From Pomacea canaliculata (taxonomy: Eukaryota > Mollusca > Gastropoda > Architaenioglossa > Ampullariidae), in the NCBI RefSeq assembly GCF_003073045.1, contig NC_037601.1, positions 10,155,807-10,219,806 on the forward strand: 64,000 nt of DNA, read 5' to 3'. The position numbers were made by a program, and so were the translations under genes. Below the pieces are notes generated by a model. That model was not told the origin of the DNA and did no database searches. It saw nothing but the letters and a program-made list of their open reading frames with translations. This document shows positions 24,401 through 53,212 of this stretch, piece by piece (the first letter of the stretch is position 1; each line of letters starts with the position of its first letter).

Positions 24401-27400
24401 CGCCCCCCTGACAAAGAAAGGTACGTCCACGCGCCCCCCTTAGCCAGCAATGTAAGCTAATTTCACTAATACCGGTATAAGAAACTTGACCACCTTCGCT
24501 CCCCACTTGTAAGCACGTCGCGTCCCCCTAGGGGAGGCGTGCCCCACCGTTTCAGAACCGCAGATGTAGGACATTAAAGAACAATTGTAATGGCTGTGGT
24601 GAGCTTCGTTGGGAACTTCTTGTCTTTGTTGCTCTGCCTCTGTTTCCACCATGTTCTTGTGTTTTTGTGCCAGCTTCACACAGATCCAGATGTTGATGTT
24701 GCTCCAAGAGAGAAGTCAACAGAGACAATAGAAGATGTTCCCATTTTTCGCAATGAGGAAGAGAAGCTTGAGTTTGAGGCCAGTGTGACTGTGGACCTTA
24801 GCTGTGTTGACCACATGTTTAAGGTACACATGCATTTGATTTGCTTCCTGGAATTAAAAAAGAAACCTGCAGAATTTTAAACTAGAGATAATAAAATCTT
24901 GGTTTAGTAGATAATATCTGTAGATGGATGACATAAAATTCAGTAATACAGCTGAACAGTAATACATATTGTTTTTCTTTGTCTGATGTTTTTTTTTAAT
25001 GGAAGATGGTCACTTTCCTGTCCCTGAGATTTGAACATAGCAAGAACCACTTGTTGTACTGTTGGTAATATGTTTTTTGGCTTATGCTTAAGTTTTGTGT
25101 AACTTTTATGGTTGTACAGTTTATAACAAACTTGCTGGCATGCTAATTACCCTCTGGGATAAATAAGGTCATGTCTTTTCTGTTTTGTTTGGTATGTTTC
25201 TCTTCTAGCATTTATGGCTAGATGTGTTGTTGATGTTTTGTCTTTTTGTCAAAGATCCATGTCATAGACCAAGATGTTAACGAGCATGGTGGAGGTCAGG
25301 GTCGCAGTGTCTCATCATCCCTGTCCTTGTACTCATGCACAGTGTGTGAAAAGGTTTTTAAAACCCTGTCTCACATGCGGCTTCACTGCTTAGTCCACAC
25401 TGACCTTCGGCCTTTCCGATGCAGCAAGTGCCAGTATTCAACAAATTCTAAGGGTAACTGTTTTAACCTATCCTTTCTTTCATTTTTAACCATGGATGAC
25501 TTCCCCTTGGGCACTTAATAATAGAAGAAAACTCCCTTTACAGTATTTTCCCCTCCTCTTCATTTACATTGACAACAAGAAGTAGCTTAGTGGCTAGGGT
25601 CTGTGACTACAGAGAAGATGATTCTTGGGTCGAGACGTGCTTGAACTTTAGGCTAAAATATGCCCCCCACCACCATTTACCAGCTGGCTAAGCAAGAATG
25701 GGCACCTAATTATCAGGGAGGTAAAGATAGCAAAAGGAGAGGGTTGGAGTCTGCCTTCTCTGTTTCTTGACCTAGATACAACGACCCATGCTTGCTGCTT
25801 CTACAGCCTATGGGACCTTTGGTCTTACCTTCAGTCATCTCTGTAACCAACTAGAACTAAAAGGCTTTAACAGTCTGCCAAGAGAACCAGAAATGAAATA
25901 TTTGTGCATAGTGTGGACTGGAAGAAATAAGAGAAAGGATCTGCATAGCTATCTAAGCTTTTTTCAATCTTCTGTCACTAGGTAACCTGTATACCCATAT
26001 GCGGAAACACACAGGCCAGTTTTATCGTTGCAAACACTGTGACTTCCGCACAGTGAACAAGAGCCATCTGTTGGAGCATGAGGCCACACACAGCAAAACA
26101 CGGCATCCCTGTGCACTGTGCCACAAAGACTACAGCACTGGGAAGTCGCTCATCAACCATGTTCGTAAATACCATGCTAACTCCCGGCGTGGCAGGCAGT
26201 ATCTCCAGACATTCCTGCAGGGGCGTCAAGCGCGAGGATCCACTGTCATACACCAGTGTCATGTTTGTAATCGAAAGGTGATAACTGTCATACATCAGTG
26301 TCTTTTCTGTAATCGAAAAGTGACAGCTGTTATTTTTGGATCTATCAGTTTGGTGTGTCAATAGCTTGTATATTAGTGTCCAACTCTTTGGTACTTGTGT
26401 AAATTTCTGTGCAATATCTATGTCAGTGTTTCTTAACCGGGGTTCTATCAAACCCTAGGGGTTTGATGAGTCGGTTTCAGGGGTTCGGCAGAGCCTCTGC
26501 CACAGAGGTCAAGACACACCCGACTGATTATGTAAATTCGTGATGACACTAAAGAAGGGTTCGGTGAATGCGAAACTGGTGGGTTCGGTACCTCAAACAA
26601 GGTTAAGAACCACTGATCTATATGGTGCAGAAAAAAACCAACTGTACTAGTTACACAGGCATACAAATTCAAGGTCAGAATTATTTGTATAATCGCTAAA
26701 ATGGTCTTGAAAAAAAAAACAGTAGGAAGCAAGGCAAAGGATATCGGAACCATATGGGCCCAGCCAAGTGGGGCTGCCCAAAACCGGGTCTGATAGTGAG
26801 GTGTTGTTGCAGCCCTATGCTCCTCAAGGAGTAACAAGGAATAAACTAAACTATAGCAACGTTTCACCACAAATAAGCAAATGTGAGATTTCTGCTGTGC
26901 ATTGTCCTTTATTATAATGACATAAGGGCAATGTCAAACAAGGGGAATATTTGGTATATTAATTAAGAAAAGTAAAACTGCTTGGGAAGTGAAGCATCAT
27001 AAATATGGAATGTGGTGAGAGGGGGCATAGCTGAAACTTGTTTGGATTTTGTGTTTTCTGCAGTTTAAGAAGAAGATAGACCGTGACAGGCACTTGTTCG
27101 TCCATGACATCCGAGATGTTGGCACAACTCAGCAGTGTGAACTGTGTGACTATTCTGCCAGTCGCCGTGTATATCTGGAGAAACACTACCTCAAGCATCG
27201 TGTTCTGTACTGCTGTGCTGCCTGTCCTATGAAATTCTTGTCCACGATCAGGTGTGTATCTGGGGTGGGGTGTGTGTGCGTGTGTGTACATGCACGATTG
27301 AGTGTCATGACTTTATCAAGAAGTAGTGTCATTAAATTTGACAACCATTGTTCTTTTTAAATGTATTACTTGCAGGCTTCTTGACCATCTGGAGAACAAC

Positions 27401-30400
27401 CACTCCACTCCTGGGTCAGATGGTTGTGTAGCTGCTAGCTGTGAGGAGCTGTTTGAACGTAGTATCAACAACAGCCTCTACCTACCAGAGCCTGATGAGA
27501 AACTGCCTGCTGTTGACAAGCAGTACATAAATCTGCCTCCAGAACTCTCTTCTACAACACTATGCACAGACCCGAACCCTTCAGAAATGCCCTGCACCAC
27601 CCTGACTTCTCAGTCAACAAATGTGAGCAGCAGTCTTGATGTCAGTGACTCCTTCAACACAGCCATGACAAGGGGTGCAATTACACCTTTACAAGTGGTG
27701 GATACAGAAAGAAGACCAGAACTAGAGAACAGGTGCAATTCTGGCTCTGATTGTTTTGATGGCTCTGTAGTTGTGACAGGTACAGAGCCTACACCTGAGG
27801 CTGCATTGGCTTCTGACGGAGAAAAATCCCCATTGTGTAATGCAAGCTTGATCAGCCAGACTGTTGAAGACAGAAACAAAGCTTTGGTGTCGTCTAGCAC
27901 CAGCCTTACCATTGTAGGTTCTGTAGACAGTGATGCTATGTTGTCGACTGGTGTCAGTCAGAGTGATGACATTGGTGACAAGATAGTGCTTGGCACTAGC
28001 ACTGTCATCACTCCTGAGTATGCACAAGACATTGAGACAACATTTTCATCAGATGCTAGCCTCATCAGTAAGAGTGATGGAAATAGCAAGGCTATGCTGT
28101 TGTCTAGCAGTGACCTTTCCACACAGACTTCAGCAGAACAGGGCATGCTGACAGCAGATGTCATCACCGATGCCAGCATGGCTGATAATCCAAATCCTGG
28201 AGACATCAAATCCTTTGACACGCTGCAAGTATCATTTCCATCTTCTGCAGAGGAAGCTAGGGTCTGTATGGACACAAGCTCTGTAACAGAGGAAGCTGGG
28301 GTCTGTGTGGACACAAACTCTGTAACAGCAGATTCAGAGTCAGTGTTGGTCCCACTTGCTCCAAACCCTGGCTTAGCTTTGGGTCCTGATGTTGATGAAG
28401 ACGAGATGGCAGATGGGATAGAGAATGAAGAAAGTTCAATGGACACATCATCCCACATGGAAGAACTGAAAGAGTCGCAGGAGACAAATTCAGGACGGGT
28501 GATAGATGTTGATAGTGAAGGGAAAGTGAGTGTGGTTGAACGCTTAGGTTACTGGCGCATGAACATGCAAATTTTACACAAGATGAGGGAAACCTTTGGC
28601 TCTGAGGAGTGTGAGTTTTGTGGGAGGTTGTTTCACACCAAGCAGGACTATGAGCCACATCTCCGGACACACACAGGTGAGTGAACTGATACAAAACTGA
28701 ATTGCTTCTTTAAGATCTCAAAAGCACCAGTTGTGTTCACACACAGTCTTCTTTGCTAGTTTTTATATTCTTTGCGAGTCCCTAAAATCCTTAACCAATC
28801 ATTTGAAAGCTTAAGTTTATGGCTACATTTCTTTCTTTGTTTCTATGTACTGCACATCATACTTAACCAGTTTGAACTGGCTGCAAAGATGTGAGTTTGA
28901 CTAATAAGATGTATCCATTTCTGTTGTATATGTTTAGTAAGTAATTTATTCTGATGACATCTATGTAAAACACAGTTAACAACACTGAAAGTTTCTGATA
29001 TGCACCTGTTCTGCAACTGTAGCCTTGCAATGATACTGTGACAGCATAGGGTTTCTTATGTGCAGGTGATAAGCCTTTTCGCTGTGAACAATGCGGCCTC
29101 TGCACCATAACCAAAGAATGCTTGCGGCGCCATGTGGAACGGGACCATGAAAACATCCAGTTTCCATGCAAGTCTTGCAATTTTGTGGCCACCAGCAGAG
29201 GACGACTGTGGAGCCACCAACTAACACACTTGGGTGTTTCTGGTTTGGAGTGCCCTCAATGTCAGGAGAGGTTTGAAACGTAAGCTCTGGCAAGGATGTC
29301 ATCATGGTTAAGACAATATCTTATTTAAATTTTGTGTGTGTGTGTTGGAGGGGGGCAGGATCCTGTGCTAAGTACCAGCCTTAAACAAGGAGAGTTGGCA
29401 TGTGAGGCCTGCTCATGTTTATTACAGACCAACACAGTATTTATCAGCTGCTTGCTTGCTGGATCCTCTTCCCATCCCTTGCTGGCTAAATGTATTGACC
29501 CACTTTTGCCAATCATCACCAACATCATTAATAACTGTCTATATCTGGCTTACTGCCACCACCATTCAAGCATGCAGTCATGAGACCACTCCTTAAAGAC
29601 TGGACTCTAGATCAGAATTGCCTCAAGAATTATCATCTCTACTTTCTCTCTCCAAAATCTTGAAAAAGATTGTCCTCAAATAGAACTTTGCATAATTAAA
29701 TGTGTGTTCTTTCATCAGTCAGCATCACGCAGCATCAAGGCTGTGCTGCTGCAAATTACAAATGACATCTTATTGGCTTTTGATTGTGGAGATCTTTCTG
29801 TCTTGACTGTTTGATCTCAGTGCAACATTTGACACCATTGTCATTTCAGTGCAGATAAAAGATTTCAGGTTGTGATGTGTTTGTACTTAAACTTTTGTGA
29901 CCTGTATATCTTAAAGTATTTTTTTTTTTTTTTTCCTTTTACTGTCATAGCTTGTTATATCAGTATTTTACAAATATTTGCGCTGTGTGCCATGTTTCTA
30001 TTTTTTTTTTTTAATGAATATGTATTTTGGTATTTTGCAAACAGTATGAAGAGACTGCGTGCCCACATCATCTGTACACATCCAGAAATGCCACGCGAAG
30101 ATATGGAGAAACTCACGGGCTATAAGCACAAGACACAGGGAAAACTAGGTAAGACACCATGTCTAAGTAGTGTGAGTGCAAGATGAGTAAGGTCAAATGT
30201 GGGAGTAGTGTGAGATTTACAAGCTGGGTTAGGCACTATGTTTGAGAAATGTAGTATGTACAACTTGTACAAGATCACATTTCTGATTCTCTAGATTAAG
30301 GGGAAAATGTAGTGTTGACATGAAAATTTGAAAACAGTTGAGAAAATCTACTGCTTGCATTGCTATTTATGCAAAAGCGTCCAGATTTATGGTCAACAAC

Positions 30401-33400
30401 GATGTATTTTTTCTTATTCTTTTGATTTTCTACAGGTCGAAGGTCATACAAGTGTCCCTACTGTGACCGTATTTTCATCCGAGCTAACTCTGAACTGCAG
30501 AAGCATATCTGGATACACGAGGGGATCAAGCCATTCAAGTGCTCAGAATGTTCATATGCTTGCCGTTCCAAAAACAACTTGCAAGCACACATGTTGCGCC
30601 ACTCCAATCAGAAGGTCAGAGAGAAGCCCAGGTGTTCTTCTCATTAAATGTGCATTCTTCTAGCATTCTTCAAGAAATCTTTCTGTCACTGTATGTACAC
30701 TCTATCTATGAACATTCTTCCTGTCATGTTTACATTCTTTAAGCACTCTTTCTGTCTCTGTATGTACACTCTACCTACAAGCATTCTTTTCACAAGGGAA
30801 TAGGAAAGAGTAGCTTCTATTCATCAGTTCTATTCTCCCACTTAGATGAGAAAAATCCAAACTGGATTTTTTTTCATTTGCTAGATTTTAAAAAAAATGT
30901 TCCAGTTTGCATGTAGTGTAGTATTTACAGCTCTCTCCTCCAAACTTTTGCACAGACAGCAGGCATAAAATATGAATTTATCTAAACCTGGCATTCATAA
31001 CAAGCTCATTTTCAGCCATTCTCCTGTCAAGAGTGTGGAAAAGCCTACAAGTCAAAAACAGCCCTGCGATGGCATGTGCGTTCACACAAAGATGGCAAGC
31101 TGTTCAAGTGTGACAAGTAAGTTTACAACTGCAACAGGTGTTTATAGGTTTTGTACAAGGAAGAAATATATTTAAAAAAAGACAATTTGTATGCGAGTAA
31201 TGCTTTCATTTTCACCTTTTTTATGTGTTTTGATGCAAGTTGAACAATATTTAACTTGAATTCATTTGTATAAACATTTTTTGTTGGGCACTTGTTACAG
31301 TACCTTTCTTGCTAGCTGAATCATTGCAATAGCTAACATGTCAAACGTTATTCTGATGACAGTCTCCTTCTAAACTAGGTGTTCTTATGAAGCACAGCAG
31401 CGCAGTCATTTGAAACGACACATGGAGACACATGAGGTGGTCAAGCGCTTTGTTTGTCAGCACTGTGACTATTCAGCCAACACAGCTGGTTATCTTAAGA
31501 TTCATTACACCCGGGTGCACAAGGGAATGGTGTACTTGCCTGAGTTGCAGCCCCCATCTCCAGCAGATGGCAGCACCACATCAACGTCAACAGAAGCCCG
31601 TGTTTTTAAGTGTTTAAGCTGCGACTATGTCTTTGGTAACTTGTCAGATCTGAAGCGACATCTGAAGATCCGACATCACGTGCAGGTGCAGGATATTGCT
31701 GGCATAGAGCAGATGCAAATCTCAGAAGTCGAGGTTAGTTTCATTCTCATATACTTGAAGTGGTTCTCACAGAACACAAAGTGATGTCCTTTCAGCAGAG
31801 AGCCATCATTCTGGGTGGTGATTTGTGCAGGATTGTCATAGTTTGTCATCTATACAGCTAGAATAGGAGGAGAGTCACTAGCTCCTTGCAGACATACTTA
31901 CTGGCGGTAGACTTTCCCATGCTGAGGCACCAAGGTTGTGCCATTGTCCTGACCAGGAAAATCTCATACTTTCTGACTGTGGATTTATAACATAAGTCAA
32001 ACATTTTAATTTCTTAAAATTTATTTGTATTTTAAGACAACAAGGCTTATTGCTTTTGGTAGGTCTGGCTTGAGGGAGGAAATTAGTGTGATTACGGATC
32101 GTGAAGTCCCACAGATGCTTTAGACTATTTTTTGCTGCTTATAAATCTGCATTTAATCATGCTGTCTGCTTTTTAACATTTCAGTTTTTAGCTAAGAGTA
32201 AAAATGCATCAGTGGATATTGTATCTAATGAAGTCACTGAACTGGATGGACCCGTTATTTAGAGGGCCAATGAGATTGTGAGCATCATTGAGATCCCAAA
32301 AGCCAAGTTTATATTATTTGTTGTGCATTCTTCTCATTTTCATTGTTTGAAAATTGTTTTAGAAAATATTCTTTTTTTTCTATTTTTGAACTGAACAGTC
32401 TACTTGACTATTTTTAGCGGATCTGTAGCTACTTAAACTAACCATTTTTTTTAAATGTCTGTTAATTTTGACAGCTTTTGTTATCATTTGAAATATTGTC
32501 TTTCCCTACATACATATTAGCATCTTTTTACCTGGAATCTTTGTGAAATTATATTCTTATCTGCAACATGTATTCCAGGTCTTGCAGTGTTCAGAAGAAG
32601 CTTCTGTTGGCACAGGAGAAGTAATGGAACCTGGTACTATGCTGTCACCGGCATTTTCTCAGACAGGTAAATTTGCTACTTAAAGAATAGTGATAACATC
32701 AACAAACTCCCAAAAAGATTTAATTAAATGGAAGAGCATATGACATATTGGATGGAGAAATGTAACTGTACAAACATGGTTCATGCCAGGAAGCAGAATA
32801 TTTGTCATGACTCAGGAGATGAGGAAGACATGACAAAGGATGGGTAAGCAACCAGATCTTGATGTCATAATACACAATATGATGTCATGCAATGGTGAAG
32901 GTGGGAAAGCAGCCAGGTCTTGACATGGGTAATTGAAGCTCATCTGTTTATTCATCTGCCAGTGTCTTGTACTCTGTGTGCAGCTCTTATGAACACTACC
33001 CCTGAAAAGAGTGTGTGTGGTGAGAAAGTTATTTATGCTATGTTCAGTCTAGGTAGTCATGTTATAGAGTTTTGTGGTGCGTTCAGTGTTCAGATAGTCT
33101 TTGAGTGATCAGTATTATCAGGGTCATGCAACTTACTGTGTGATGGTGACTAGACATGACTTGATTTCTGGTTTCAGTAACAAGCTCAGAGCTGGATGAG
33201 AAGACTGCATCAGCTGTGACACTTCTGCAGCAGATCATCACCATGCAGCAGCAGGTATAGATAGTTTCTACACACGGTAGTTATTTTCATCATTAACCAT
33301 CAGCAGGTGTCAGTTTCTCATTTTACTTTTATCATGAGCCATCACTGGACATGGGCATAATATCTCTTTCCATTGCCATCAGCAGATGTAGACACAGTTT

Positions 33401-37955: not shown

Positions 37956-40900
37956 TTAGTGACAGTTGTTGCACTGGGGGTGACATTTTTGCTCATCGAC
38001 TCGACAGCGACATCCTCCAGAAATGTCTCCTTTTCCCTGAAATTCAGAAAAAAATGTTATCAAGTCAAAGAAATGGTATTTCAGTTTTTGTTACTTGTAG
38101 TAAATAATGTTATAGAATATAGAATACTATTCTGGGGAGGTGTTATCACATTTGAGTAAATCTAAGACTCACAAACTCTCAGCCCTGATTTATAGTTTTA
38201 CTGCCAGTGAAACCTGATTGCAATACATCTGAATTGTCACCCACTGATTGCTTTATAGTGCAGATGATCTACGTGCGCAGACTTTGCCAAGATGGCCATT
38301 CTGTCCCAAACATCAAGGCACATGACAAAGGCAACCCATGAGAAGCATATGTGTCTGTCTCATCTTATACTCATCTGTGTACTATTCCATAATGGACATT
38401 CCTTGCATGTCCCTCAAACACTGACATTATTATGATTCAAATACTCATTTATAAACAAATTTTTGTTGCTATGAAAAAAATCTAGATTAAGTGAATTTTT
38501 AAGTGGTTGCCTAACCTAGGATCAAACTCACTTTTGGGCCCCACCGACGACCTCTGGTCACCCAGCAGATCTCTGTTTTGCAGATCGAGCAGCGGATCCA
38601 GTCACAGCCATCTTTTTTCTGTAAGATGACATGACACTGAGGACATTCCATTGCCTTCCCTTTAATGAGCATTTCCTGTCAAACAGAAGATGTCCTGTTA
38701 CCCAATGTACTTGCACCGTGGCTTCTTTTAAAATAACAAGCTGTTGTCGCATGAGGTGAAATATTTCCCCACAATGTAGCACATTTCTCCTCTCCCTAGG
38801 GCTATGAAGTGACACAGTTACAGAATAACTTGCATGGTACAGGTCACTGTGAAATCATGTAACAGATGTGACACCACACAAAGTGATACAGGTCACTTTT
38901 ATACACTCATATGTCTCAACTTCGCCCTGCAGCATTGAATTTTTTCAGATAAATGTCACAAATTTTCAGACTTGGTATGATATTTATACTGTTAATATTC
39001 TATGACAATAGAGTTGAGGGATAAGACCTTAACGATGCAGAGCCGACAAAGTCAGATAACAGCTACAGAAAATATGCAAATAAACAGGAACAAAAGAAGC
39101 AAGATACTTCACTACATGAACCAGCAGAAATGACATCAACTACATTTGTTTCCTGAATGCAGTACATCTTGACAGCAGATAATACCAGTGAATATAGAAA
39201 TCTCAGGCGACAAATGAAAGAAGTAGAGACAGTACAAAAGAATATAGACAGCAACCTAACAAGTATAAATGAGCCAGCAAGTACAAGTAAAATACCAACA
39301 TTTCAAGTACAATTGGAACAGCAACGTATCAGTGAGAAGCAAGTGTGCAACATTGCCGATGATAAATGTAAAAGAAGAATTCTGACTAATGCAAATGAAT
39401 GCTGAGAGTATAGGTGACATACATGAGCAAAACCCTCTGAACTATGGGAAGTGACAGGGTACCTTCAAAACCTCCTGGGTTTGTCTGGCAGCTACATCAT
39501 TGGCAGCACGAATCTTAAGATCCTCCTGGTACTGTTTGCAGTCCATCCCATGGTGGATAGCTCGGCAAGTCAAGCAGTTGACACGTCTACAAACAGGGCA
39601 GTGGAAAAAGTTGACATTGTCCTCGTAAATACACCAGCCTGGACAGTCGGTGGTCACGCAGTGATAGCTGTTCGTCTCATTGCTTTCTGCAATACTCAGG
39701 CTTCGCTGAAGGTGCCGCTCATAGACCTCATGGGAAACTAGCTGACAAACAGTTGGCAAGGGTCCTCTTATCATGCAATATAATGACAATTACTCATCTA
39801 TGTTATCCTTTGTTGTTTCAATTGTCCTAAGTTCATGATGGTTTTAAAAAAAATTTCTTCAGGTCTTAAATTCTGAAAAATTAAATTGACCTATTTGTCA
39901 TTTAGGATAAGGAATTAGACTAATTCAAAACAGGATGCATAGCTGGTTTACATAAGTTCAAAACAGTAGACATATTTCATTATTACTTAAAATAGTAGAA
40001 TGTAATGATGGTACAAGGTCAAGAAGTGTAGACTCACTGCACGAATTTCTCGGTCTTGCAAACGAGCATAGCAAGTGTAGTTGTTATCTGTATAAGGGCA
40101 TGAAAGCTCTGCTTCCTCAGTCAGCCTCACGGTCTCTACCAGACAAGACCTGTGTGACAAACAGATTGTCATTGCACCCATGGAGCATGGCCTCCTTTTG
40201 CGTACACACCAGTTCTGGTTATTTTTCAAACCCACTGACTTAACTAGAAAAAAAACCTGTGCCACAAAAGGTCCAGTTTCAGCCAGTTGACCTAACTTTA
40301 TCTCCATAATATAATAACACGCAGATCACATTTAGTTCCATAGTATGTTCTTCTCAATTATACGTTGCAGTTTACAAGCAAAAGTTCTCTATACTTTGCA
40401 GTTACATACTGTTGTGTAGTTGATTCCATTCACTGTGGGTTTGAAGCTACTTGTGTCAGATCAGAAAACTGTCTAGTGAGCAGTGATTTAGCATCTGCTT
40501 TCTAAGGAGAGGTATGAAGTGTCAAAAAAGGAGTATGGGCTCCACTTTTATGCCCAGCCCAGATCTAGTGAATGACTGACTTTTAGGCAGCTATACAGTT
40601 CCCCTGACTAGAATGCAATAAAGACCATTACATGTTCAACCTGCATCCATACTTGTACAAACCATCCCTCTCACCTAAGTGTGTAGTTACATGCTCTCCT
40701 CTCATATATGCTTTCTATACATCACCTCCTGATCTATACACTCTCTACACTGGACATCACTTCCTCCACTCCTATCTCACCTATATCCAATGCACATAAA
40801 ACATCACCCACCCCCTTGACAGTAAAAAAAAGACAACCTGCAGAACTGGTGAAGACATTCTCTCAGGACAACTCCCTGTCCTACTTCAACCTCTTCAAAG

Positions 40901-43900
40901 CAGATGGGGCAAGAAAAGTTGATTGTGTTGTAGACCAGATCCTCGCTGTCTGCTTGCAGCAGCTGCTGATAGTTCTTCTCGCGCAGTAGTATCTCTGACT
41001 GTACAATGTAATCAAGATGTCAAAACTGAAGGGTCTATGGTTTTATCAATAATCCTAAACTTTTAATTTTAATTGGACTTGTCCCCATGAGGCTTGCTTA
41101 ATAATTATGTAATGACCAAATCTCAGCAAATATCTTTCTTCTAATTGTGTGATAAAGGTTCCAAATATCAACATTTTCATTATCTCTTGTGCTCAGAAGC
41201 CCTTCAAAAACATGACTTCATTTAGGATGGATATGATTCATGAACAAAATTTTTTATCTCTTTCATTGGCTGCAGCAGGGTTGATGTCAGCAGATGTTTC
41301 AGCAGCTTTAGTTCTGATAATGTCAGCACATCTTTGCAGCACACTGAACTATGTAGCCTGATATTTAAAATGAATTAAACCCACTTAACTTGAAAGAAAA
41401 ATAATACACTTGGGTTGATTTAGAGAATTAAAATACTATTTTGGCATCCATTTTTTTTCCGACAGCCTTCACTGTTTATTTTCTGAAGAAAATTAAAATG
41501 CATGATAGTGTCCAACATATGATGCAGTGTCACAGATGGTATAATGGTGCTTCAAAAATGATGCAAGGATGAGGGATGAGAGAGGACATAGTTATTAAAC
41601 AAAGGCAAGTCACTGTCCTGGGGACAGTTATTTAAGCAAGGGTGTGGTCTCTAGTCATAATGTGGTATTTAGGCATCACAGATGTTTTACCCTTGGGACT
41701 ATAGTTATAAAGCAGTGGTAAAGATGCTGTAGGGTAAAGTAACAAAAAGCAATATTTGCAGGGCCTTTATCTCTATATATAGCTAGCATTAGCCCTCTCT
41801 GGAATTTGTCCTTGTGGATTAATAAAGTTGTTTTGCTTGCCCTTGTTGTCCCCATTTTCCCCCGGGCAAGGCTTCATGTTGCTTTATAACAATGGTCTCA
41901 AGATGTCACACGCTTGCTCACTCACATACACATGCTGTTGCTAACCAACATGGTACTAGCCCCAAAACATGCCCAATCAAAACACCATGTTTATTTACTT
42001 TCACTACATAAGTTGTCAAGTTACAGAGCACTTTGACCATGCTAAACATACAAGACAAGATGGAACAAAAGTCTACTTGTAGAAATAACAGACAGGACAA
42101 TATTTCTCCTATGTGCAATCTGCAGGTGACATGAAGCATTATCTGTTCCCTGTAAAAGTCACTTGTGAAGCATTATCTGTTCACTATAAATGCCAAAGTA
42201 GCTAAAACAATTATTTCTGTCACCTGCCCACCCAGCGAGATGAAAGAAAACAGAAAACATTGCTCACAAAAGTTGTGGGACATACACTCATTAGTTAAAG
42301 CTGTTAGACATAACACAGCTCAGTAATGTCAGACATTAGACACTGTAGCACAAAACACTAGCTTATCATACCACAGTAGTTGTGGAACTCAGATAACATC
42401 ATCTGCTATGACAGCAATGGTAAACAGAACACAGTTACAAATAAATTTTAAGTTGCAGTGCTTAGCAGTTTTATTCACCTATCACAAGACAATTGCAATC
42501 AGAAAAAAAATGAGTGGTGCTTTTTGGGAAAGAAAGGAGGTCAAGATTACCCACTTCCCCAATGTGAGAAATAGTAATGTGAAGTTACTGTCATGTGTGC
42601 ATAATGAGCTGTGCAGATAAACCAGTTCAGCAAGCATTTGTTCTATGGTGGCCTCCAGGCAGGAAGACAAAAGTTACTGTAATATGTACACAGGGGTGTG
42701 TGCAGACGAATTGGTTCAATGAACATTTGTTCTATGGTGGTCCCCAGTGAGAGAAGAGAGGGTGTAATTTACATATAGCAAGAAATGATCAGAGAAATCA
42801 GTGGAGTGCTTCTCTTATGTGGTCATAAGTAAAGCTTTTTTAAATGTATTAAATGTCCTTACTTGTTGGTACTAAGGATTATCTTTTAAACCCATAAAAC
42901 ACCCTGAACATAATAAGTTGAATGACAAACTGTTAGCAAGCAGAAGTGCATTTCCTATCTTCCTCTTAATGGCATAATGCAGCGGTTCTCAACCTGTGGG
43001 GCTTGGACGTGCTTAAAAGGGGGAGGGGGGGCGCAAAGGTGGTCATTTTTTGTAAAGTTTCTTATACCGGTATTAGTGAAATTAGCTTACATTGCTGGCT
43101 AAGGGGGGCGCGCTGATGTACCTTTGTTCGTCAAGGGGGCGTCACAAGTAAAAGGTTGAGAACCGCTGGCATAATGTCTATCAAAGAAGTGCTCACTGCT
43201 AAGGGTGGTGAATAACAAAATCATTTTAGTCTTATTCTTAAATGCATAAAAACAAAAGATGTCTTTAAAGTTATGTGTGCTTTCAACCCAGCTGTGGAAT
43301 GTTTGAATAAATTTAAAACAACTACCACGGCATCTAGTGATGCTCTTAGGTCACTGTATCCAAAAAAAGTAGCCTAATGGTATGAGGGGACTTTCTATGA
43401 TTGCTGTACTCAAGATGGCTTAATGGTATAAGGAGACTTTCTTAGAAGGACAAGCCTTTATGTCAACGTCCATGACATGAATTCCCAGTGTGGTCCAACA
43501 ATAGGAAATCATAGAAGATGGGATTTGTGAAAGGGCTCAATGTCTGTGTTACATTTATTTGTCCATATCAAGCAAACTTGCTTTCATGCCCTGGCTCTTA
43601 AGTCTTATCAAGATTTGTTCACATAAAAAGATCCTATTGATGGTGCTTAACTACACTGATATACAATGTAGGGGGGGCAGTTTCTGTGATAACTGACAAC
43701 GCTCAGGTAAGAATGGGGCTCTATTCCTCATCCCTGTCTAACGGCCATCCAAGGAAAGTGTCTGGTACATCCTCTCCAAGTTCATTCTGCACAGGCTCTC
43801 TAGTACTGATGAACGACGCTGTCAGTCTTGCTGTCTGAGGGGCTGTGCCTGTAGACTCACCAGAAGGATGTGTTTGCTGCTGCAGGGCATCATTAAGGCA

Positions 43901-46900
43901 CAAGATAAGATTGAGTTCTTGCTCTGTTAGTTTGCGACTGACTGATGTAGCACGTGCATGCACAGTGCTCTCTCCTGGACCCTGGGTGTGACCTTGGCCG
44001 TGCCCCTGCCCCAACTCCTGAAACACATTGAACAGGACACACCATCAGGACAAGGGCATGGTAAGGTCACACCCCCACTCGTGAAGTAACTTTTCATTCT
44101 ACAGTGCACATTAAACATCTCGTATAACTTAGTTTTACTACAGGTTGTAGTGACTGGAATGCAAGTCCACTCCTCAGATGCCAGCAAAGTGACAACAAAA
44201 AAGTTCTGGCTATTATGTAGCCAGCCAGGATGCTTGAACAACTCTATTAACTACAATGAACTGTAAAGGGCATTAACTCATGGTAAAAAGTGTGATCTTT
44301 AACATCTTAATCCCCAGCAACCTTGTAGAAGTTTTGGAATTACCTTTACCCTTTTTTTTTAAACTCTGCATGTACAAGATAATTAACTGACTTCTGTTCT
44401 CCTGATATTTGTGAATGCATAAGCATACTATTTAAAAGCCCAAGAAAGTTGATGTAATCTCTCAATACCCAAGAATATAACTTATCTGCTGTTTCCCAGT
44501 CCTTATTACAGCACAAAAGAACAACAAATGCATCAAGCACAGAGAAGGTGTGATAAAAATATATATAAACAGGGCACCAACGATGTCCATGTGCTTGGAT
44601 GTGTAAATACACATAACACAGAGGTATGGAGCCTGACAGATCTGGGCACCAAGATCTTCTGCAGCATATAAAAAATGTATCAGGAAGTCTATAGGCAGTC
44701 TCCTCAGACAACAAGCTCACCTGAAGCATAAGTTCTTCCTCCCTCAATTCACGCTCGTGTCGTTGTCGCTCTTCTTCCATCATAACATAGCCCTCAGGTA
44801 CTCTATAGTCTTCAGGCCGAGCTGACCCACAGGCTTCACAGCCTGGCCGTGTGGGAGTATTTATAAGAGTACAAGTATCACACTGCCACCCCAACTGCAG
44901 ACAAGAAAAGAAAATTTAATATTTTATTCATACCAAGTACACAGAATATCAAACATATAAAATAGTTAATCCCCCTGTTGGATCACCACCTTGCCGCGGT
45001 CGAGGGGCTTGCATGTCTCGATGACCCTAAGAGCTATGCCGACAGGAGCATCAGCTCCTAGCAGGGTCACCCAAGACGGACAGGTCGAAGGGTAGAGACC
45101 AGACAAAGAGTGGTCCATGAGTGCTGAAGTCGGAGGTGGTGGGCCGCAAGGCGCACTCTGAAATAACCACACCACCACGCAACAAAGCCTATGCCACTTG
45201 GAGAAATAGTTAATTGAGATATGGCTATCTTTCTCCATTATTGAACCCCCAGAAATGCTTAATTGTTTTACTACCAATAAAAAGTTAGAATGACAATCAT
45301 GTCGCTGTTCAGCACTTGAGAGATTGCAAAGGACAGTAACCCCGCACACCAGTAATGACAAGTTTAGCTCCCTGCTTGTTGCAACTGATCAATCTGCTAC
45401 AGGACAAGTATGTAGTCATGCTTGATGTAACTTTGACAAGTCCATGTAGTCATGCTTGAGGTAGCCTTCATCAGTCCTGAAGTCATGGAGTCTACTAGAC
45501 TTGTGTAGAGTACAGATTTTTGAGGATGGCACAAGATGCAGCTTCTGGTGAAACAGTGGTTTTAGTGACTAGTTCATTCAGCTTTGTTACAGGTTTGATT
45601 AGTCCATCTGATATTGGATCTGCCAGTTTTTTCCTAGCTTCAGTCATTCCATCAATTTGCTTTATTAGCAAAAGTAGCTGGCATCTGTGTGTGAGAGAGA
45701 GACTGTCACTAAACTACACTGGCTCATGACACCCCACTGTGTCAACAAGCTCAGTATGATGTGAAAGCCTGTAATTCTCATTAATATGAAATTATGCACA
45801 GCAAGAATTCAGGACTGGGCTTCAGCATCTAAATGCTGTTCTACTTACAGTAGGTAAGGGTAAGCAGGTGATGGGCTTGACTTTTACGTTCTGAATATGT
45901 CAGTGGAGTCACAAGGTATCAATGAAACACACTGAGATACACCTCATTTGGTGATGAGCAATCTTCCAGCAGTGTTTACCGAAAATAGGATAAAGGCTTT
46001 GGGGGTTGGCGGGGAATAACATCATGCAGGAAATCAAAATCCCTCTGGTTGGACAGCGTCCTCACATGCTGAATGTTAAGGGGCATTACACAGTTACCAT
46101 ACATGATATCACCAGATGAAAACAAAGATCCAAGACCTAGCAATCACCAGGACAGGTGACAAAAACATTGCTGAGTCAGAACAGGGATGAAAATGGTGAT
46201 CCACTTTCTAAGGCACAAGTAAATGGAAGCCCTACCATCAGTATTTAACCCTAACCCTGAATGAAACAGTAACAAAGATAGTCCAGCATTAAGAGTATCT
46301 CATATCTTTACATGCACTGTTAAGCTGATATACATTACATCTCTGTTGTTGTCCCAAGCTATTATGTTAACAGTAATCACATCTTACCCGTCTCAAGGTG
46401 CCACAACTGACACACACTCATCACAAGTATGACAGACAACTACACACCTACCTTTCTTAAGGTGTCAGATAACAGCTGTCACATCTTACCTGTCCCAGGC
46501 TTGTAGGTTCCTCCTCTTCATTGTGCTGCAAGATCTCAGGGGCACTGCAAGCCCTTTGAGAATGCACCCTAAGCCCTGTTGGTATCACTGGTAGATCTGA
46601 AGCTGCAGGAGCATGTTGAGCACCACCAACCCGTCCAAAACCAGGCCCAGAGAAGGGACCAGAGGTGAGGTCAGATGGGGTGGTTATGTCTGACATTGTT
46701 GGAAAGTCGGAGGGTAAAGAGTCTACACTTGTGGCTGTGGGATGACCAGGAGGATGGCAGGCTGCTGGAGGTAACTGAGTATGACCTTGACCTAAGTTCT
46801 GGATCATGACACCTAATTGATGACTGCCTGAGGTGTTGCTTCCTGGGAAGTGCATAGATTCATAGTCTGGAAAATATAACAGTATCAGAATAAAAAAAAA

Positions 46901-49900
46901 TTGCTGTGCACAATATTTAACAAAAGATATGACAATGGAGCTGTACTTCTAAATAACAAGATGCATGTAATGCAGTACTTAGCAGTTGGAGCTATAAAGA
47001 TACGTTACACAGTACTTAGCAGTAGGAGCCATGCATAGCTTATAGCTCACATCCACGAGGAAATATGCATTACAAATTCAATTATTATTATTAAAAGCAA
47101 CATAATCTCAATTATTATTATTATTGCTAAAGACCCACCTGAACATTTTGTGTGTTTTTCAGATATCAATAAATATAGGCGATATAAACCTAACCTGTAA
47201 ATTTCAGCCCCCAAATCCATCCATTAATTATCCACTATGATTCGCACCTGCGATCAACATGTGCTGATAACAGTGTACTATGTCATGTTAGTGCAACATT
47301 CACAAGGTTGCCTGAAGTCAACACTAATCAGAGAGAGAGAGAGGGAGAATGAGTGACAGTTTAGATTATTGGTACGATGGAAATCTGCATTTCTCTTGGT
47401 TCTGAAAACCTGCTACTTTAGCATGAGAAATGCAGACTTTCAATGCCCGAATAACCCAAACTGTCGCTCTAAAATCTAAATAGTGTTGTGAATGGTGTAC
47501 CAAAGTGACATAGTACACCGTTACTAGAGCTTGTTGACTGCAGGTGTGAATCAGGTACTTTGGTAGCGGATAATTAATTAACAGATGGGTTTTGGAGACT
47601 GAAATTTACAGGTTAGTTTTATATCGCCTATATCTACCAATATCTGCAAAAAATGCAAACCATTCAGGTTGGTCTTTAATAAGGGCAGCATGATCTTAAT
47701 TATTATTATTCTTTAATGACGGTGACATGATCTCACCTCCACTAGCATCCCTGGTATTTCTAACACTGTTTCCCTGCCCTGAAATACATGTGAAGAGCAA
47801 CAATTTAATTTGCATTGAATAGCATTTCAGTCAACATAGTTTGCACTATCTGCACTGACTAACAAATAATGAAAGCACAAGAAAACAAAATATGAAAAAC
47901 ATAAGCCAATAAAAGCATGCTACAATACATAAAACACAGCTACTATAACAAGTAATCAACAAACTCAAAAGAAATACATAGGCAATAAGAAATATTTTTA
48001 AAAAAAGCAGAAAATAATCTAATGGAAAATGCCATTGAACAAGAAACTGCTGTACGATGACAAAAATCAACTCACTATACACTTGATATTTGTCCAAATA
48101 CAAAAATATCTAGTAAGAATCACTAAAATCAATCAACACTCCTGGCAGGTAAAGGGGAACAACATGGACAACAGAAGGCACAACACTGGTCAGTTGACTG
48201 AAATCAGCTTGACCAGAAAGATATTTGGTTACAATTTAAAAAAATGTCTAGAAAAATACAAAATATGTAAATGCAAAATGTATTCTGCACCGTAACTTCA
48301 TAAAGACAACAATTTGAGATAAAAGATCATGGCTTTTAAATGTTATTACACCAAAATCCTTTATGACCACACTGTTATCATAATTTGTTACATTTGCTAT
48401 ATAAACCAAAAAAACTAGAGATACTGTGACCCAGTTACCCTTCAGATAACCAGACATGACTTACCTTCAGTCGTGGATGCCTGTTGTGCAGGGTGATATT
48501 CCTCACGAGTACCGATTATGTTGCCCGCACGTGCATTTAGCAGATACAAGTACAGAGTGTGCCCACAGCTGTTCACGTCACATTTACTAAGGCATTCTGT
48601 ATCTGTTCGAATTTTCTTTCCAATTATCCATTTCTGGACTTCAGCTGGAAATCCATATTTTCCTAGGAACTACAAGGGACAGGAAACAAACTGAGAGAGT
48701 GAACAGTCCCCTAGCGCATTCCCTGTTAAACCAATGGTAAATCTTGTCCATGTAAATTTTCATCTGGCTTTCATCCTATTTTCAAACAGAAGAACTGAGC
48801 TCAAATCTTATTATGGACCAGGCTAGTGCAGCTGGTCTATAAAGTGGAATAAGCAATCTCCTGCTGGTAATCATCAGACTGATGTACTTATCTATAAATT
48901 ATAATCAACATTATAAGATGAAGAATGACTTCAAGGGCTGGTTCTCTGATTAACCCCAGTAACTCAGGCTGGCAAATCAAACCATGTTAAAGGAGATATT
49001 CTGACATTCTTAGAGGACAAAAAGGCTTATAACATTCACAGATTCCTGTTTTTCTCTCACTTACCATGTATTTCAAATCTGCAATTGTGTCATTAGGCTT
49101 TACTTTGATGTCCCTCAGAGTTAAGGCTGATTCTCGGTCTTCCACATGAACTGTAACACTACAAACAATACACTCATACTATTAATATGACACCCTCATC
49201 AATAACTGTATCATTACAATGACACTCATCCATACCATATAATGAAAATAATAGGATTTATATAGCACATTTCCCCACATGAAGGAGAGCTCAATGCACT
49301 ATATAAGATGTAAAGGCAGTTGGAATCTCTCCAGTCTCCATGTGGGACAACAAGAAAAGGAGTGTGGGAAGACCAAATTGACTTACCATGCTTGTCAGTT
49401 CAAAGCTGTTGTTGAAGAGTCTTTTAAAGAAAACGAAATAGTGGTATTCTGAAAATATTGCACACACTATGAACAAACCTGAATTCTTGTTCAAGAGAAT
49501 ATTGTTGCTGGGAGTCACTGTTAATGATCGTCAAATGTGCATGGCCCAGAGCCATGTATGCAGCAATCTCTTGTGCCCGTCTGACGTTGCCCACCCGAAT
49601 GACTGCAGCAAGCTCCTCAGACAGCTGTGGCATTATATCTTGATTCATCTGGGAACAAAAAAATCTACCTGATTATTTGACAAGCCACAGTAGAGTACAA
49701 AGTAGAGAACAAGGCAAAGGATGTGAGAACCACATGGACCCAACTGAGGGATGCTGCCCCAAACCGGGTCCATCGGCGGTGTTGTTGCGGCCTTATGCAC
49801 CTCGAGGAGAAACAAGGAATAAACTAAACTATTTTACATGCCATTATGAAAACCAGAATGAAGCTCTTACTATAAAGCATATGCTTAACTCTTTACAATT

Positions 49901-52900
49901 TACTCAAACATGGATGGTCAGGGTCATATAGATAAAAGAACAACAAAGTTTTACAGATAAGCAAGGTTGCTGATTTTGAGATGGACATGTGCTTCCACCT
50001 AAAGGTGATTTCACAATGTGGGGGAATGGGGATCTGAACAATATGGAGAGTATTGGATGGGAGAGGCAAAGTAGGAAGTGTGTGTGTGTGGGGGGGGGGG
50101 GCTGGGAAGTGTGAGAGGAGGGTTCCTGCTCCACAGGTATTGCTCACTGTTGTTGGTGTTGTTTACTGTTGCTCTATTTTTCCTGTTGTGGTCTTTTTGC
50201 TCTTGGTGTCTGAGAGGCCAGCCAAGTTCGCAGTGGGGAGTATTGTAATGGTTGCCAGATACCTTACCCTATTCTACTAGAATACACTTGTAAAGAGTGT
50301 TTTATAAAGTACACAGTTTTTTTAATTTTGCGGGATTTTTTTGTTTGAAGATTGTCAGTGCTGTTCTTATCATTTTTGCGATCTATTTTCACTCCTATTA
50401 GACGCCTAGACATCATTTTTTTCATTTTGTAGCCATGGAGCAGTTCAGTATCGTGCAACACATTCTTATTTAGAAAACTCATTACAAAAATGGGGAGTGC
50501 TATCCAGAGACTGATCTCGCTTCAGGTGGCAACCAAGAATGGGGGCATGTGACCTTATACCTTGTGACTTCTTTTTAATGGGCATATGTGAAGTCACAAG
50601 TTTAAATGAACAAACCTCAAACGATAGCCAAACTGAAAAGGGATATTCAATAGGTAATTGGCAGAATCAACAGGGACGTCTGTGAAACAGTTATAATTAA
50701 TTTCAACAATCGGATGACTTCCTGCAGAGAAAATAGAGTTGGAGATATGCTTGATAAAATTTTTCATTATTAAATTGAAGCATATGTTGAATGAAATTAA
50801 ATAAGAATTTTGAATTTTGCTTTGATTTAGCTGATTTGTTGCATTTTTTAAAACTGCTTTATGAAACACTCTATATTTAGTTTTAGGTACTATATTAGTT
50901 TTTACTGTTAAAAGACCATCAGTTTGTTTTAGTGTCTTTAATAATTTTTTTGTCTTTATGAACCTTGTATTTGTACGGTTTGTTGCTTTCTTAACAGTTT
51001 GTGTATAGTTTCTTTTTTTTACAAGGGTTTAGACTTTTACATTATCTGTTGTTACCCTACCTTATTTTTGGTTATAGTTCTGGTTATGGATGAGTGAAGG
51101 AATCCCATATTTCCTATGGGTAAGTTTGTTTCAAAGATATTTTAAATTATACGGTTAGGTTAGATTAAATGAAGCATGGGAGGATGTAAGAAACTAGTGC
51201 AGTGCCCATCATAAAACAAAAACTTTCATGAATTTAAAAAAAAAACAAACTAATGAGCTGTTTAGATCAAACACAGGCTTTGATGACAGCTCTTACCATG
51301 GAACACAAGAGAAGAGAAGAGAGCTGTGACATACCTTGTTTTGCTCCATGAGTTTTCCTGGACCAACAAGACTTTCCTGTGCCTTAGCTGCAACACCTGG
51401 TCTCAACATGTGTCTACTTCCTGTGGCGGGATCATGTACGACTGCATTTGATTCTAAAGATATGCTTTTAACAAGTGACCTGCCACTGGCCAATAATTCT
51501 TCTGATCTCTCAATCAAAGAAGCCTGGTTGTTAGATTTAGCTTGTGCTAAGATTTCCTTTTTAACCTCACATAGGCGCTGGTTAAATCTCTTACTCTCCT
51601 CAGAAGCCTTCAAGCTGAAAATGAGGTGTTGTGCTGGTCGATTTTGCTTGAAGATAGTAACTTCATGCCAGTATTCTCGACTGTTGTCATATATGAGGGA
51701 GCCATCCAATATACCATCAAGGGGAAGAAACAAGAATATCTGCAACACATACACAAAAATATAAACTTAATATAATTAAGGTGGAGAATAATTTAAATTA
51801 CAGGATCTAAAAGTGTTGCTCACAAATTTATTTAAATATTTACAAATGTTTATTTATTTATATATTTACAAATGTGCATGTAAATAGTGGCCGATCACTT
51901 TGCCCCACAACAAAAGTCAGTTCATCCCAGCTAGGTCCATTTAGACTGAAAAAGTCAAATTGTCCCAAGTCCAAAAGACGAAGCGATCACCGAAGAAACA
52001 AGCAGCTATTAATATCAAATATTACCAAAAGAGCCATTATGTTATTTGAACACCAATTATATGCAGAGACTTTGCTGATTGGGAACTCATTTAGCTCGAC
52101 GCACATCATACTACAGCAGTGCACCCACACTATTGTCATCAATTGTGAAACAAACTTTAAAAAGATTAAAATGTGCTATATAAATCCACTTTACTGTTAT
52201 CATTAATTTATAGTCATGCTGTGTTTATTGTAAACCATCCCATATAAAGACTGGTCTGGGCAATCGATGTGACAAATGAACTCTGGCCACTTGATGCTGA
52301 CTGTCAGTGTAGTCACGAACTTGTATATACATGTCCATAATGTAGTCTACAGTCTAGACTTTGTTTTTACAGTCATATGGGGGGTGCGGTTAGCCACTTG
52401 CCCAATTGCTTAAGGATGAAAATCTTTCACACTATCCAAAATGCAGGCTCACGTCATGGCAGAGACGGTTAAATAACTACCCGAGTAGCGATATTTCTGC
52501 AACAAATCTCCAACTAAAGAATAACTAAAACCAGTCCAGACCAGGTTATGGTTTAGGATATCAACTAGACATCTCACAATTTCTATAACTCTGGCCCCTG
52601 CTCGCTCTTCCACTTCTGTCTTGGATGAGGCAACTGAAATTAATTTCTTCTGCAATACTATACAGGAATTTAAGCCAAATACCTTGAGAATTCAGTTCAT
52701 TATATGAGTTATCAAACATTTTAAGTGTAAGTCAGTGGGAAAATAGGATCCATATAAATTGTAAAATTGTTCTCTAGAGTTCAAAGAAATAAATATTCCA
52801 CGCGACCATGGGAAAAACTAACAGGCATTACTGTTAGACTTTAAGAATACCACTATGAGGCTACGGATTGCCAATACACGTATTTCTGGAAGCAATAAGA

Positions 52901-53212
52901 TATCACCCCAAAACTCACTTTGTCCGCCTCCTTCTGAAGGACAGCCAGTGTGTAGCCATTTTCGTGTTTATTGAGACACAAAGTCCGTGTGTTCGCCGGC
53001 AACAGCGTGTCACAAGTTCCTAGAACTGACTCTGAGGAGCTCAGACGTTTGCCGCGCCGGGTGTTTGGTGCCAAGTCTAAGCAGCTGGGTTGTGGCTGCA
53101 GCACCACACACTGACAGGACAGCAGAGCGGTTTTCAGGCACAGCTCGGCATCCCCGGCACACATGCTCAGCCGCAACCTGCGGTTTCTCGCCAAAACTGG
53201 CTTTTCTTCCAT
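37956..53212 (-). CDS. RBCK1: HOIL-1/SHARPIN-type RBR E3 ubiquitin ligase (PH-like, LTM, UBL, NZF, RBR)
   Basis: Probable linear-ubiquitin (LUBAC-type) component. Minus-strand exons: 53212-52919, 51739-51335, 49648-49479, 49158-49065, 48669-48465, 47778-47737, 46866-46490, 44894-44721, optional 44017-43861, 40998-40838, 40149-40038, 39741-39463, 38675-38532, 38036-37956. They join in frame to 845 aa (about 896 with the optional exon). Residues 1-175 form a PH-like region ending [19 protein letters not shown], comparable to SHARPIN. An LTM-like helix pair follows ([19 protein letters not shown], about 243-261), then the UBL (about 290-380, [15 protein letters not shown]), a disordered linker, the NZF (WQC at 532-534), RING1 (from Cys617), IBR, and RING2 with KKDGCDW, whose Cys795 corresponds to the HOIL-1 catalytic Cys460, ending CHPQCNNCH. 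The RBR is closest to HOIL-1; the N-terminus is SHARPIN-like. Confidence 0.94.
41760..41840 (+). repeat. LINE-tail-like sequence
   Basis: CTCTGGAATTTGTCCTTGTG followed by GATTAATAAAGTTG resembles the short 3' tail of some invertebrate LINEs. A similar CCTCTGGGATAAATAAGG occurs at 25150. No coding part is attached. Confidence 0.3.
42980..43168. mobile_element. hAT-like MITE (189 bp) with perfect TSD
   Basis: Perfect inverted ends CAGCGGTTCTCAACCT and AGGTTGAGAACCGCTG, flanked by the identical 8 bp GCATAATG (42972-42979 and 43169-43176). There is no coding capacity. It lies in an intron of the RBCK1-like gene. The intact duplication suggests it is fairly young. Confidence 0.92.
43721..44017 (-). 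CDS. Optional internal or alternative terminal exon of the RBCK1-like gene
   Basis: Acceptor TGTTTCAG opens a phase-0 frame after the NZF exon ([13 protein letters not shown], then [19 protein letters not shown]). A strong donor GTGAGT after 43861 ends it in phase 1. That phase fits the RING1 exon only if the acceptor 4 nt further in is used (exon start 40994 instead of 40998), which exists. If the donor is not used, the frame runs 45 codons further to TAG at 43721-43723 and would end the protein before the RBR. Confidence 0.5.
   Translation of the reverse strand, partial: ELGQGHGQGHTQGPGESTVHARATSVSRKLTEQELNLILCLNDALQQQTHPSGESTGTAPQTARLTASFISTREPVQNELGEDVPDTFLGWPLDRDEE
44968..45200 (+). mobile_element. 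LINE 5'-end fragment (RTE-like family)
   Basis: A GC-rich block with ATCACCACCTTGCCGCGG, GGGGCTTGCATGTCTCGATG, AGCTATGCCGACAGGAGC and GGGTCACCCAAGACGGACAG. The same order occurs inverted at 19500-19320 just upstream of a LINE endonuclease, which identifies it as that family's 5' region. It lies in an intron of the RBCK1-like gene. Confidence 0.6.
47129..47677. mobile_element. Foldback (long-TIR) element, copy A
   Basis: The left arm starts AAAGACCCACCTGAACATTT and runs through GATATAAACCTAACCTGTAA; the right arm ends with the inverse, CCATTCAGGTTGGTCTTT. A second inverted pair lies inside (AATCTGCATTTCTC and GAGAAATGCAGACTTTC), so the single strand could fold into nested hairpins. No coding frame. 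A related copy is at 61744-62149. Confidence 0.75.
49220..49350 (+). repeat. Interspersed repeat with LINE-tail features
   Basis: AATAATAGGATTTATATAGC, then TTTCCCCAC and GAGCTCAATGCACTATATAA, matches the general pattern of the antisense 3' part of CR1/L2-like elements. It is short and degraded. Confidence 0.35.
49689..49831 (+). mobile_element. 5'-truncated LINE tail (RTE-like)
   Basis: Same family as 26703-26854 and 34700-34987: GAGAACAAGGCAAAGGA, AACCACATGGACCCAACTGA, GCACCTCGAGGAG, ending AACAAGGAATAAACTAAACTA. It lies in an intron of the RBCK1-like gene, 41 bp upstream (in transcript sense) of an exon. Confidence 0.8.
49985..50015 (+). repeat. Second copy of the TGCTTCCACCT repeat core
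   Basis: TGTGCTTCCACCTAAAGGTG matches GGTGCTTCCACCTTGAGGTG at 37856-37875. A short G-rich GT run follows at 50080-50102. It is part of a dispersed family of unknown type. Confidence 0.4.

Follow-up and report, generated by a model that had tools for sequence, protein, structure and literature searches.

The window analysed here is a stretch of 64,000 nucleotides from the gastropod Pomacea canaliculata (NCBI RefSeq assembly GCF_003073045.1, contig NC_037601.1, positions 10,155,807 to 10,219,806 of the forward strand), and positions are counted from its first letter. Its minus strand carries, from 53212 to 37956, a gene of 13 exons (E1 to E7, E5b and E9 to E13) with GT-AG introns, together with an alternative last exon, exon 8. 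The gene is most probably the single-copy caenogastropod pro-orthologue of HOIL-1 (RBCK1) and SHARPIN, that is, an accessory subunit of the linear ubiquitin chain assembly complex (LUBAC), which by way of exon 8 comes in two forms.

Spliced with the microexon E5b, the long form is open over 845 residues with one terminal stop; without E5b, the coding sequence comprises 2496 nucleotides and 831 residues, again with a single terminal stop. The original prediction, made from the sequence without database searches, had placed the start (53212), the end (37956) and the junctions at 52919, 51335, 49648, 44721 and 40998 exactly, and its claim that the exons join without a stop is borne out by the 831-residue frame with GT-AG introns. 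Its exon list was incomplete, as the microexon (47778-47737), the alternative last exon (44017-43721) and the isoform without the RING-between-RING (RBR) ligase were missed. The exons are listed below with residues in the 845-residue numbering; P0001 is a database protein described further on.

Exon 1: 52919..53212, minus strand; residues 1-98, start codon and first strands of a PH-type domain
Exon 2: 51335..51739, minus strand; residues 99-233, remaining PH-type domain, its C-terminal helix and a linker (SHARPIN PH profile match; P0001 from residue 102)
Exon 3: 49479..49648, minus strand; residues 234-289, LUBAC-tethering motif, LTM (matches to 5y3t_A and 5y3t_C; P0001)
Exon 4: 49065..49158, minus strand; residues 290-321, UBL part one (PDB 4dbg and 2lgy matches; P0001)
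Exon 5: 48465..48669, minus strand; residues 322-389, UBL part two and a linker (PDB sequence matches; P0001)
Exon 5b: 47737..47778, minus strand; 42-nucleotide microexon, residues 390-403 (identical in P0001; similar stretch in Littorina)
Exon 6: 46490..46866, minus strand; residues 404-529, low-complexity linker (P0001)
Exon 7: 44721..44894, minus strand; residues 530-587, NZF and C-terminal extension (PF00641; 3b08; P0001)
Exon 8: 43721..44017, minus strand; alternative last exon, tail of 98 residues with an acidic end, stop at 43723-43721, giving a 685-residue protein without RBR (P0001)
Exon 9: 40838..40998, minus strand; residues 588-640, RING1 start (homology only)
Exon 10: 40038..40149, minus strand; residues 641-678, RING1 end (homology only)
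Exon 11: 39463..39741, minus strand; residues 679-771, IBR (homology only)
Exon 12: 38532..38675, minus strand; residues 772-819, RING2 with the catalytic-Cys context KKDGCDW (homology only)
Exon 13: 37956..38036, minus strand; residues 820-845 and stop, CHPQCNNCH end (homology only)

An acceptor for exon 11 at 39737 was rejected because of stops in frame, while 39741 keeps the frame open. The intron after E5b contains a 91-nucleotide inverted repeat (47128-47218 and 47588-47678, 82% complementary, 369 nucleotides between the arms).

The domains downstream of the PH-type region were as originally read, with UBL, NZF and a complete RBR present. The C-terminal RBR carries both the catalytic Cys in KKDGCDW and the HOIL-1-type end CHPQCNNCH, and in a sequence search against solved structures it matches HOIL-1 (8eaz_A) with 2e-106. 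The top PDB matches to the NZF are HOIL-1 chains (3b08_B, 1.1e-13). LTM-like helices had also been proposed; here residues 244-369, covering LTM and UBL, match HOIL-1 5y3t_A (1.8e-11) and residues 241-368 match SHARPIN 5y3t_C (2e-8), and the two best structure matches to the LTM-UBL part of a model of the Littorina orthologue are the HOIL-1L and SHARPIN chains of the same entry. Among the Pfam models, NZF (PF00641, 4.2e-7) and several RING models score above their cut-offs and the ubiquitin and IBR models below theirs; no match to the Pfam LTM model is listed for the window, and Littorina reaches 24.6 bits at a cut-off of 27.5. A hidden Markov model of LTM-UBL was seeded with the window sequence and is no independent test of this region. 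In the alignment the LTM has a Leu and an Ile four residues apart, as in other LTMs. Passages of PMC6044281 report that mutation of mouse HOIL-1L L15/V19 and SHARPIN L176/I180 abolishes LTM pairing, and by spacing and pattern the snail Leu and Ile appear to correspond to these residues. An LTM followed by a UBL, and an NZF of HOIL-1/SHARPIN type, place the product by sequence in the HOIL-1/SHARPIN family of accessory subunits.

P0001 (source lgn, contig of 1945 bases, 8 member sequences) links most of these exons in one product. All 584 of its residues from 2 to 585 are identical to residues 102-685 of the predicted short form, and the protein crosses seven splice junctions from exon 2 through exon 8, microexon E5b included. 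P0001 has 7 matches in the genome (440 Mb, 24 contigs), which follow this gene exon by exon and include no intronless copy, so that it most likely derives from spliced RNA. Since P0001 begins inside exon 2, it is silent on exon 1. This exon matches the N-terminus of the Littorina protein P0121 with a score of 114 (maximum 47 in 1000 shuffles) in an alignment that crosses the exon 1/2 join, and P0121, a single protein, can be aligned from exon 1 over exon 2 and onward through the tail. The matches of exon 1 to Haliotis are weaker (scores 49 and 54, reached by 0 of 1000 shuffles); the match of Haliotis P0005, with 39% identity, extends over 100% of the query and so takes in the RBR.

The SHARPIN-like nature of the N-terminal region was addressed with profiles and a structure model. 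Against those of 20 vertebrate SHARPIN sequences, the profile of six gastropod pre-LTM regions reaches P 4.4e-5 and a probability of 69%; its score of 38.0 compares with at most 18.7 in 60 column shuffles. Against vertebrates and invertebrates pooled, a set that includes bivalves (P 9.8e-7 by themselves), P is 5.3e-9 with a probability of 96%, and the score of 62.8 compares with at most 16.9 in shuffles. The linkers between UBL and NZF of four groups, used as a control, give P >= 0.36 against vertebrates. A match to vertebrates at P < 0.001 was obtained for 4 of 9 groups (gastropods, Mytilus/Mya-type bivalves, amphioxus and one further group) and none for the other five (oysters, Solemya, urchin, cnidarian and termite). 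In pairwise alignments exons 1 and 2 score above all 1000 shuffles against Littorina and two Haliotis proteins, and against two bivalves, swan and amphioxus the score is equalled or exceeded in 12 to 893 of 1000 shuffles. The PH region alone, searched against PDB sequences, returned the sole row GCN5 with an E value of 0.84, which is not meaningful.

The PH superfold consists of seven strands followed by a C-terminal helix. An AlphaFold model of P0121 (51 sequences) has strands at 29-41, 73-82, 87-94, 99-105, 114-120, 123-129 and 136-142 and a helix at 147-179; the predicted local distance difference test (pLDDT) is 77-92 over residues 71-180 and 51-62 at the first strand. The exon 1/2 join aligns to where the fourth strand begins, so that the fold depends on both exons. 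The original reading of the N-terminus as PH-like thus finds support in the profile match and the model topology, but with neither a Pfam nor a PDB match it is not proven: the sequence profiles and the model make it well supported that the region is PH-like, short of a proven SHARPIN PH superfold.

P0001 stops in exon 8 without reaching the RBR, and an AATAAA lies at 43559. Exon 8 as an internal exon ahead of exon 9 was rejected; its 157 nucleotides would shift the frame, and it is therefore a terminal exon. Counted as hits to P0001 without the RBR motif GCDW, 14 of the 20 proteins in the search, P0001 itself among them, lack the RBR, and they include proteins of eight further named gastropods (Littorina, Aplysia, Bulinus, Bradybaena, Biomphalaria, Candidula, Plakobranchus and Elysia). 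In all three pairs compared (this gene, Aplysia and Biomphalaria) the long and short forms diverge 56-57 residues beyond the NZF Trp. For the exon-8 tail the similarity to Littorina is clear, with a score of 121 where 500 shuffles give at most 61; of the other 12 tails two are marginal, their scores being reached by 6 and 9 of 500 shuffles, and ten not significant. A gastropod isoform without RBR is already known in print: passages of PMC9334734 describe an Aplysia HOIL1 isoform without TRIAD (XP_035825204.1), which its authors suggest to be a functional analogue of SHARPIN.

Two related proteins without RBR, P0132 and P0133 (source lgn), have an N-terminal region that matches the SHARPIN PH profile (P 1.8e-5); their last 19 residues are unlike the gastropod tails, and P0132 has a weak WH1 match (0.044).

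Several observations weigh against a two-form pro-orthologue. Residues 1-169 have no Pfam match, and pair by pair the PH exons do no better than shuffles against vertebrate SHARPIN and amphioxus. The Littorina model is of modest quality overall (mean pLDDT 63.3, predicted template modelling score 0.38), and the solved SHARPIN PH domain (4EMO, as given in passages of PMC9084887) appears in neither of the fold lists, which were filled by ubiquitin-like rows and so are uninformative on the PH fold. P0001 does not cover exon 1, and no RBR-bearing protein of P. canaliculata is among the best 120 of 455 matches (top identity 70%), so that support for the long form comes from homology and the open frame. 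A PH-type region gained separately in molluscs and distinct from the SHARPIN domain would agree with the lack of a Pfam match, with the insignificant pairwise matches to swan SHARPIN and amphioxus, with the five groups, oysters and cnidarian included, that show no vertebrate profile match, and with a gastropod-vertebrate profile probability of a mere 69%. We nevertheless consider a separate gain improbable in view of the identical position ahead of the LTM, the seven strands and helix of the Littorina model, and P values to vertebrates and to the pooled set that neither shuffles nor linker controls approach.

Another possibility is that two neighbouring genes were merged and the first two exons are part of another one, as the original prediction itself had considered. 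The absence of exon 1 from the spliced database product would fit this, yet P0001 joins exon 2 to exons 3-8, Littorina P0121 spans exons 1 and 2 through the tail as one protein, and Haliotis P0005 covers the whole query including the RBR; a merger is thus very improbable, and a separate gene for exons 1-2 was rejected on the P0001 junctions and the Littorina alignment. The product ending in exon 8 might instead be a roleless by-product of premature polyadenylation, with the RBR form alone at work. That the tail is scarcely alike across snails beyond Littorina speaks for this explanation, while the 14 RBR-less matches among the 20 to P0001, with eight named gastropods besides this one, the same point of divergence in all three pairs and the clearly shared Littorina tail speak against it, and on balance we regard it as unlikely, though deserving some weight. 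A single gene with an alternative last exon is preferred in what follows.

Genome searches with P0001 and P0003 found no second gene of SHARPIN or HOIL-1 type. Such a gene was rejected as all P0001 matches lie here; of the 11 matches of P0003, 8 also fall here, and the remaining 3, located on C4, are limited to the RBR part. A HOIP-type UBA (PF16678, 4.6e-18) is encoded on the contig of this gene at a distance of about 1.2 Mb (C12:11448307-11448591), with one TAG in the frame read, and stretches judged by eye to be HOIP-like NZF, RING1 and IBR lie near it. A gene of the OTULIN family (PF16218, 2.1e-17) is found in at least three pieces at C3:11829217-11830550.

The combination of PH-type domain and RBR, which the original prediction had presented as a departure from a vertebrate SHARPIN without RBR, is widespread and not peculiar to the snail gene. 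Among the best 120 of 378 homologues, 62 have PF16764 (SHARPIN PH), and all 62 keep the cysteine-rich C-terminal end of the RBR; by database names they comprise birds, reptiles, amphibians, sharks and rays, pipefishes, one hagfish and amphioxus. The motif GCDW is present in 60 of them, and the two without this catalytic context, P0036 and P0112, are from pipefish, where the RBR is perhaps altered in the lineage. SHARPIN without RBR is the mammalian protein. The sample contains no mammalian SHARPIN and so is no direct test of mammals; the mammalian protein is presumably too short to have qualified as a candidate. Its domains are given as PH-UBL-NZF in passages of PMC9084887.

In a tree of 42 rows, built from LTM-UBL, NZF and RBR without linkers and PH, the gnathostome SHARPIN clade (8 rows, 100/99) is sister (97/86) to that of gnathostome HOIL-1 (9 rows, 99/98); lamprey and hagfish fall just outside this split, and amphioxus lies outside those (89/90). 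The 13 molluscs form a clade (97/95), in which the window sequence groups with Babylonia and another gastropod (100/100). The approximately unbiased (AU) test rejected a clade of lophotrochozoans with HOIL-1 (p 2.1e-6) and one with SHARPIN (p 1.3e-5); the groups were named after the tree was known, and the lophotrochozoan set includes an annelid that stands apart from the molluscs in the tree. The snail gene, which lies outside the gnathostome split, is therefore orthologous to neither HOIL-1 nor SHARPIN alone. This tree of SHARPIN, HOIL-1 and invertebrate homologues, proposed at the outset as a check, agrees with the predicted ancestral architecture, and an ancestral PH-LTM-UBL-NZF-RBR protein divided after duplication is the best reading. 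As to the time at which SHARPIN lost its RBR, the 62 PF16764 proteins of non-mammalian vertebrates and amphioxus all keep the RBR end, from which we infer a late loss towards mammals and not one directly upon duplication. The simple story is complicated by the grouping of lamprey (no PH) with hagfish (PH) outside the gnathostome split and by the models of Aplysia, Biomphalaria, scallop, chiton, crinoid and brittle star, which begin at most 26 residues from the LTM; for these reasons either there were several losses of the PH or some of the gene models are truncated. The suggested order of events is an undivided PH-to-RBR protein in the bilaterian ancestor, duplication in vertebrates, disappearance of the PH from HOIL-1 and, only towards mammals, loss of the RBR from SHARPIN, which would make the mammalian textbook domain set a late state and not the rule.

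The gene resembles several known systems in part. Vertebrate HOIL-1/RBCK1 has the same order of LTM, UBL, NZF and RBR, the KKDGCDW context and the CH-rich end, but marsupial HOIL-1 (P0042) starts at the LTM and leaves no room for a PH. The full long-form architecture is found in non-mammalian SHARPIN, as in the swan protein P0037 (Sharpin_PH 1.5e-30; LTM, NZF and RING above cut-off, UBL and IBR just under), which differs in being one of two paralogues and in its clear Pfam Sharpin_PH match, absent in the snail. Amphioxus RBCK1-like P0020 combines PF16764, an LTM (26.1 bits against a cut-off of 27.5), an NZF and an RBR in a single protein, and no RBR-less form of it is among the matches listed. 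We know of no exon-8-type tail in mammalian SHARPIN. That protein is comparable to the exon-8 form in having PH, UBL and NZF without RBR (passages of PMC9084887), but is encoded by a separate gene. The Aplysia isoform without TRIAD is likewise an RBR-less product of the same gene (passages of PMC9334734); P0122 is an annotated RBR-less isoform of Aplysia, and Aplysia P0122/P0008 differs in that it begins at the LTM without PH and in that its tail is not significantly alike. The listings and open-access passages of the literature contained no statement that non-mammalian SHARPIN keeps the RBR, nor any that derives SHARPIN and HOIL-1, as vertebrate paralogues, from a single gene of this kind; subscription papers, such as Marin 2009 on animal RBR ligases, are outside this scope. 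RBCK2, a splice variant of RBCK1, reportedly inhibits RBCK1 ligase activity, going by the title of a reference.

On the best reading, a snail LUBAC would consist of HOIP and the two products of this gene. Exons 1-7 encode the PH-type domain, LTM, UBL and NZF predicted to be common to both forms; a transcript that skips exon 8 and reads exons 9-13 would give a HOIL-1-like form with the RBR ligase, and one that ends in exon 8 a SHARPIN-like form without it. The genome has a HOIP-type UBA; the UBL is predicted to dock on the UBA of HOIP and the gene product to stabilise HOIP, and the NZF would bind linear ubiquitin. The LTMs of the two forms should be identical, and those of any two copies could co-fold into a dimer that holds the complex together, in line with the stabilisation of mammalian LUBAC by LTM pairing described in passages of PMC10967397 and PMC6044281. 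The RBR of the long form, if expressed, would tag LUBAC subunits with ubiquitin and so restrain the complex; passages of the same two papers attribute such restraint to the HOIL-1L RBR in mammals. The choice of last exon, and hence the ratio of long to short form, might then be regulated to set LUBAC output.

More tentatively, gastropods as a whole may rely on one gene whose alternative last exon is old, with the RBR form in the HOIL-1 role and the RBR-less form in that of SHARPIN, their ratio tuning the self-restraint of linear ubiquitination, and mammals may have reached the same pair by duplication and later loss of the SHARPIN RBR; we hold this to be quite possible without favouring it. 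If true, it would offer a naturally occurring case where the restraining RBR may be switched on and off by splicing in place of a second gene. The alternative last exon is the part worth following, the combined architecture being less novel since it is widespread.

Elsewhere in the window, four further features were noted:
8472-8819, plus strand: cytochrome b5-like domain (PF00173, 9.7e-12) within an open frame that is probably an exon of some other gene
25234-31784, plus strand: C2H2 zinc-finger stretches, recognised by eye, of which 31374-31781 matches zf-H2C2_5 (2e-12)
3391-3693, plus strand: reverse-transcriptase fragment (PF00078, 3.7e-7), probably a retroelement remnant
17170-17634, plus strand: reverse-transcriptase fragment (PF00078, 2.1e-6, under the cut-off), probably a retroelement remnant

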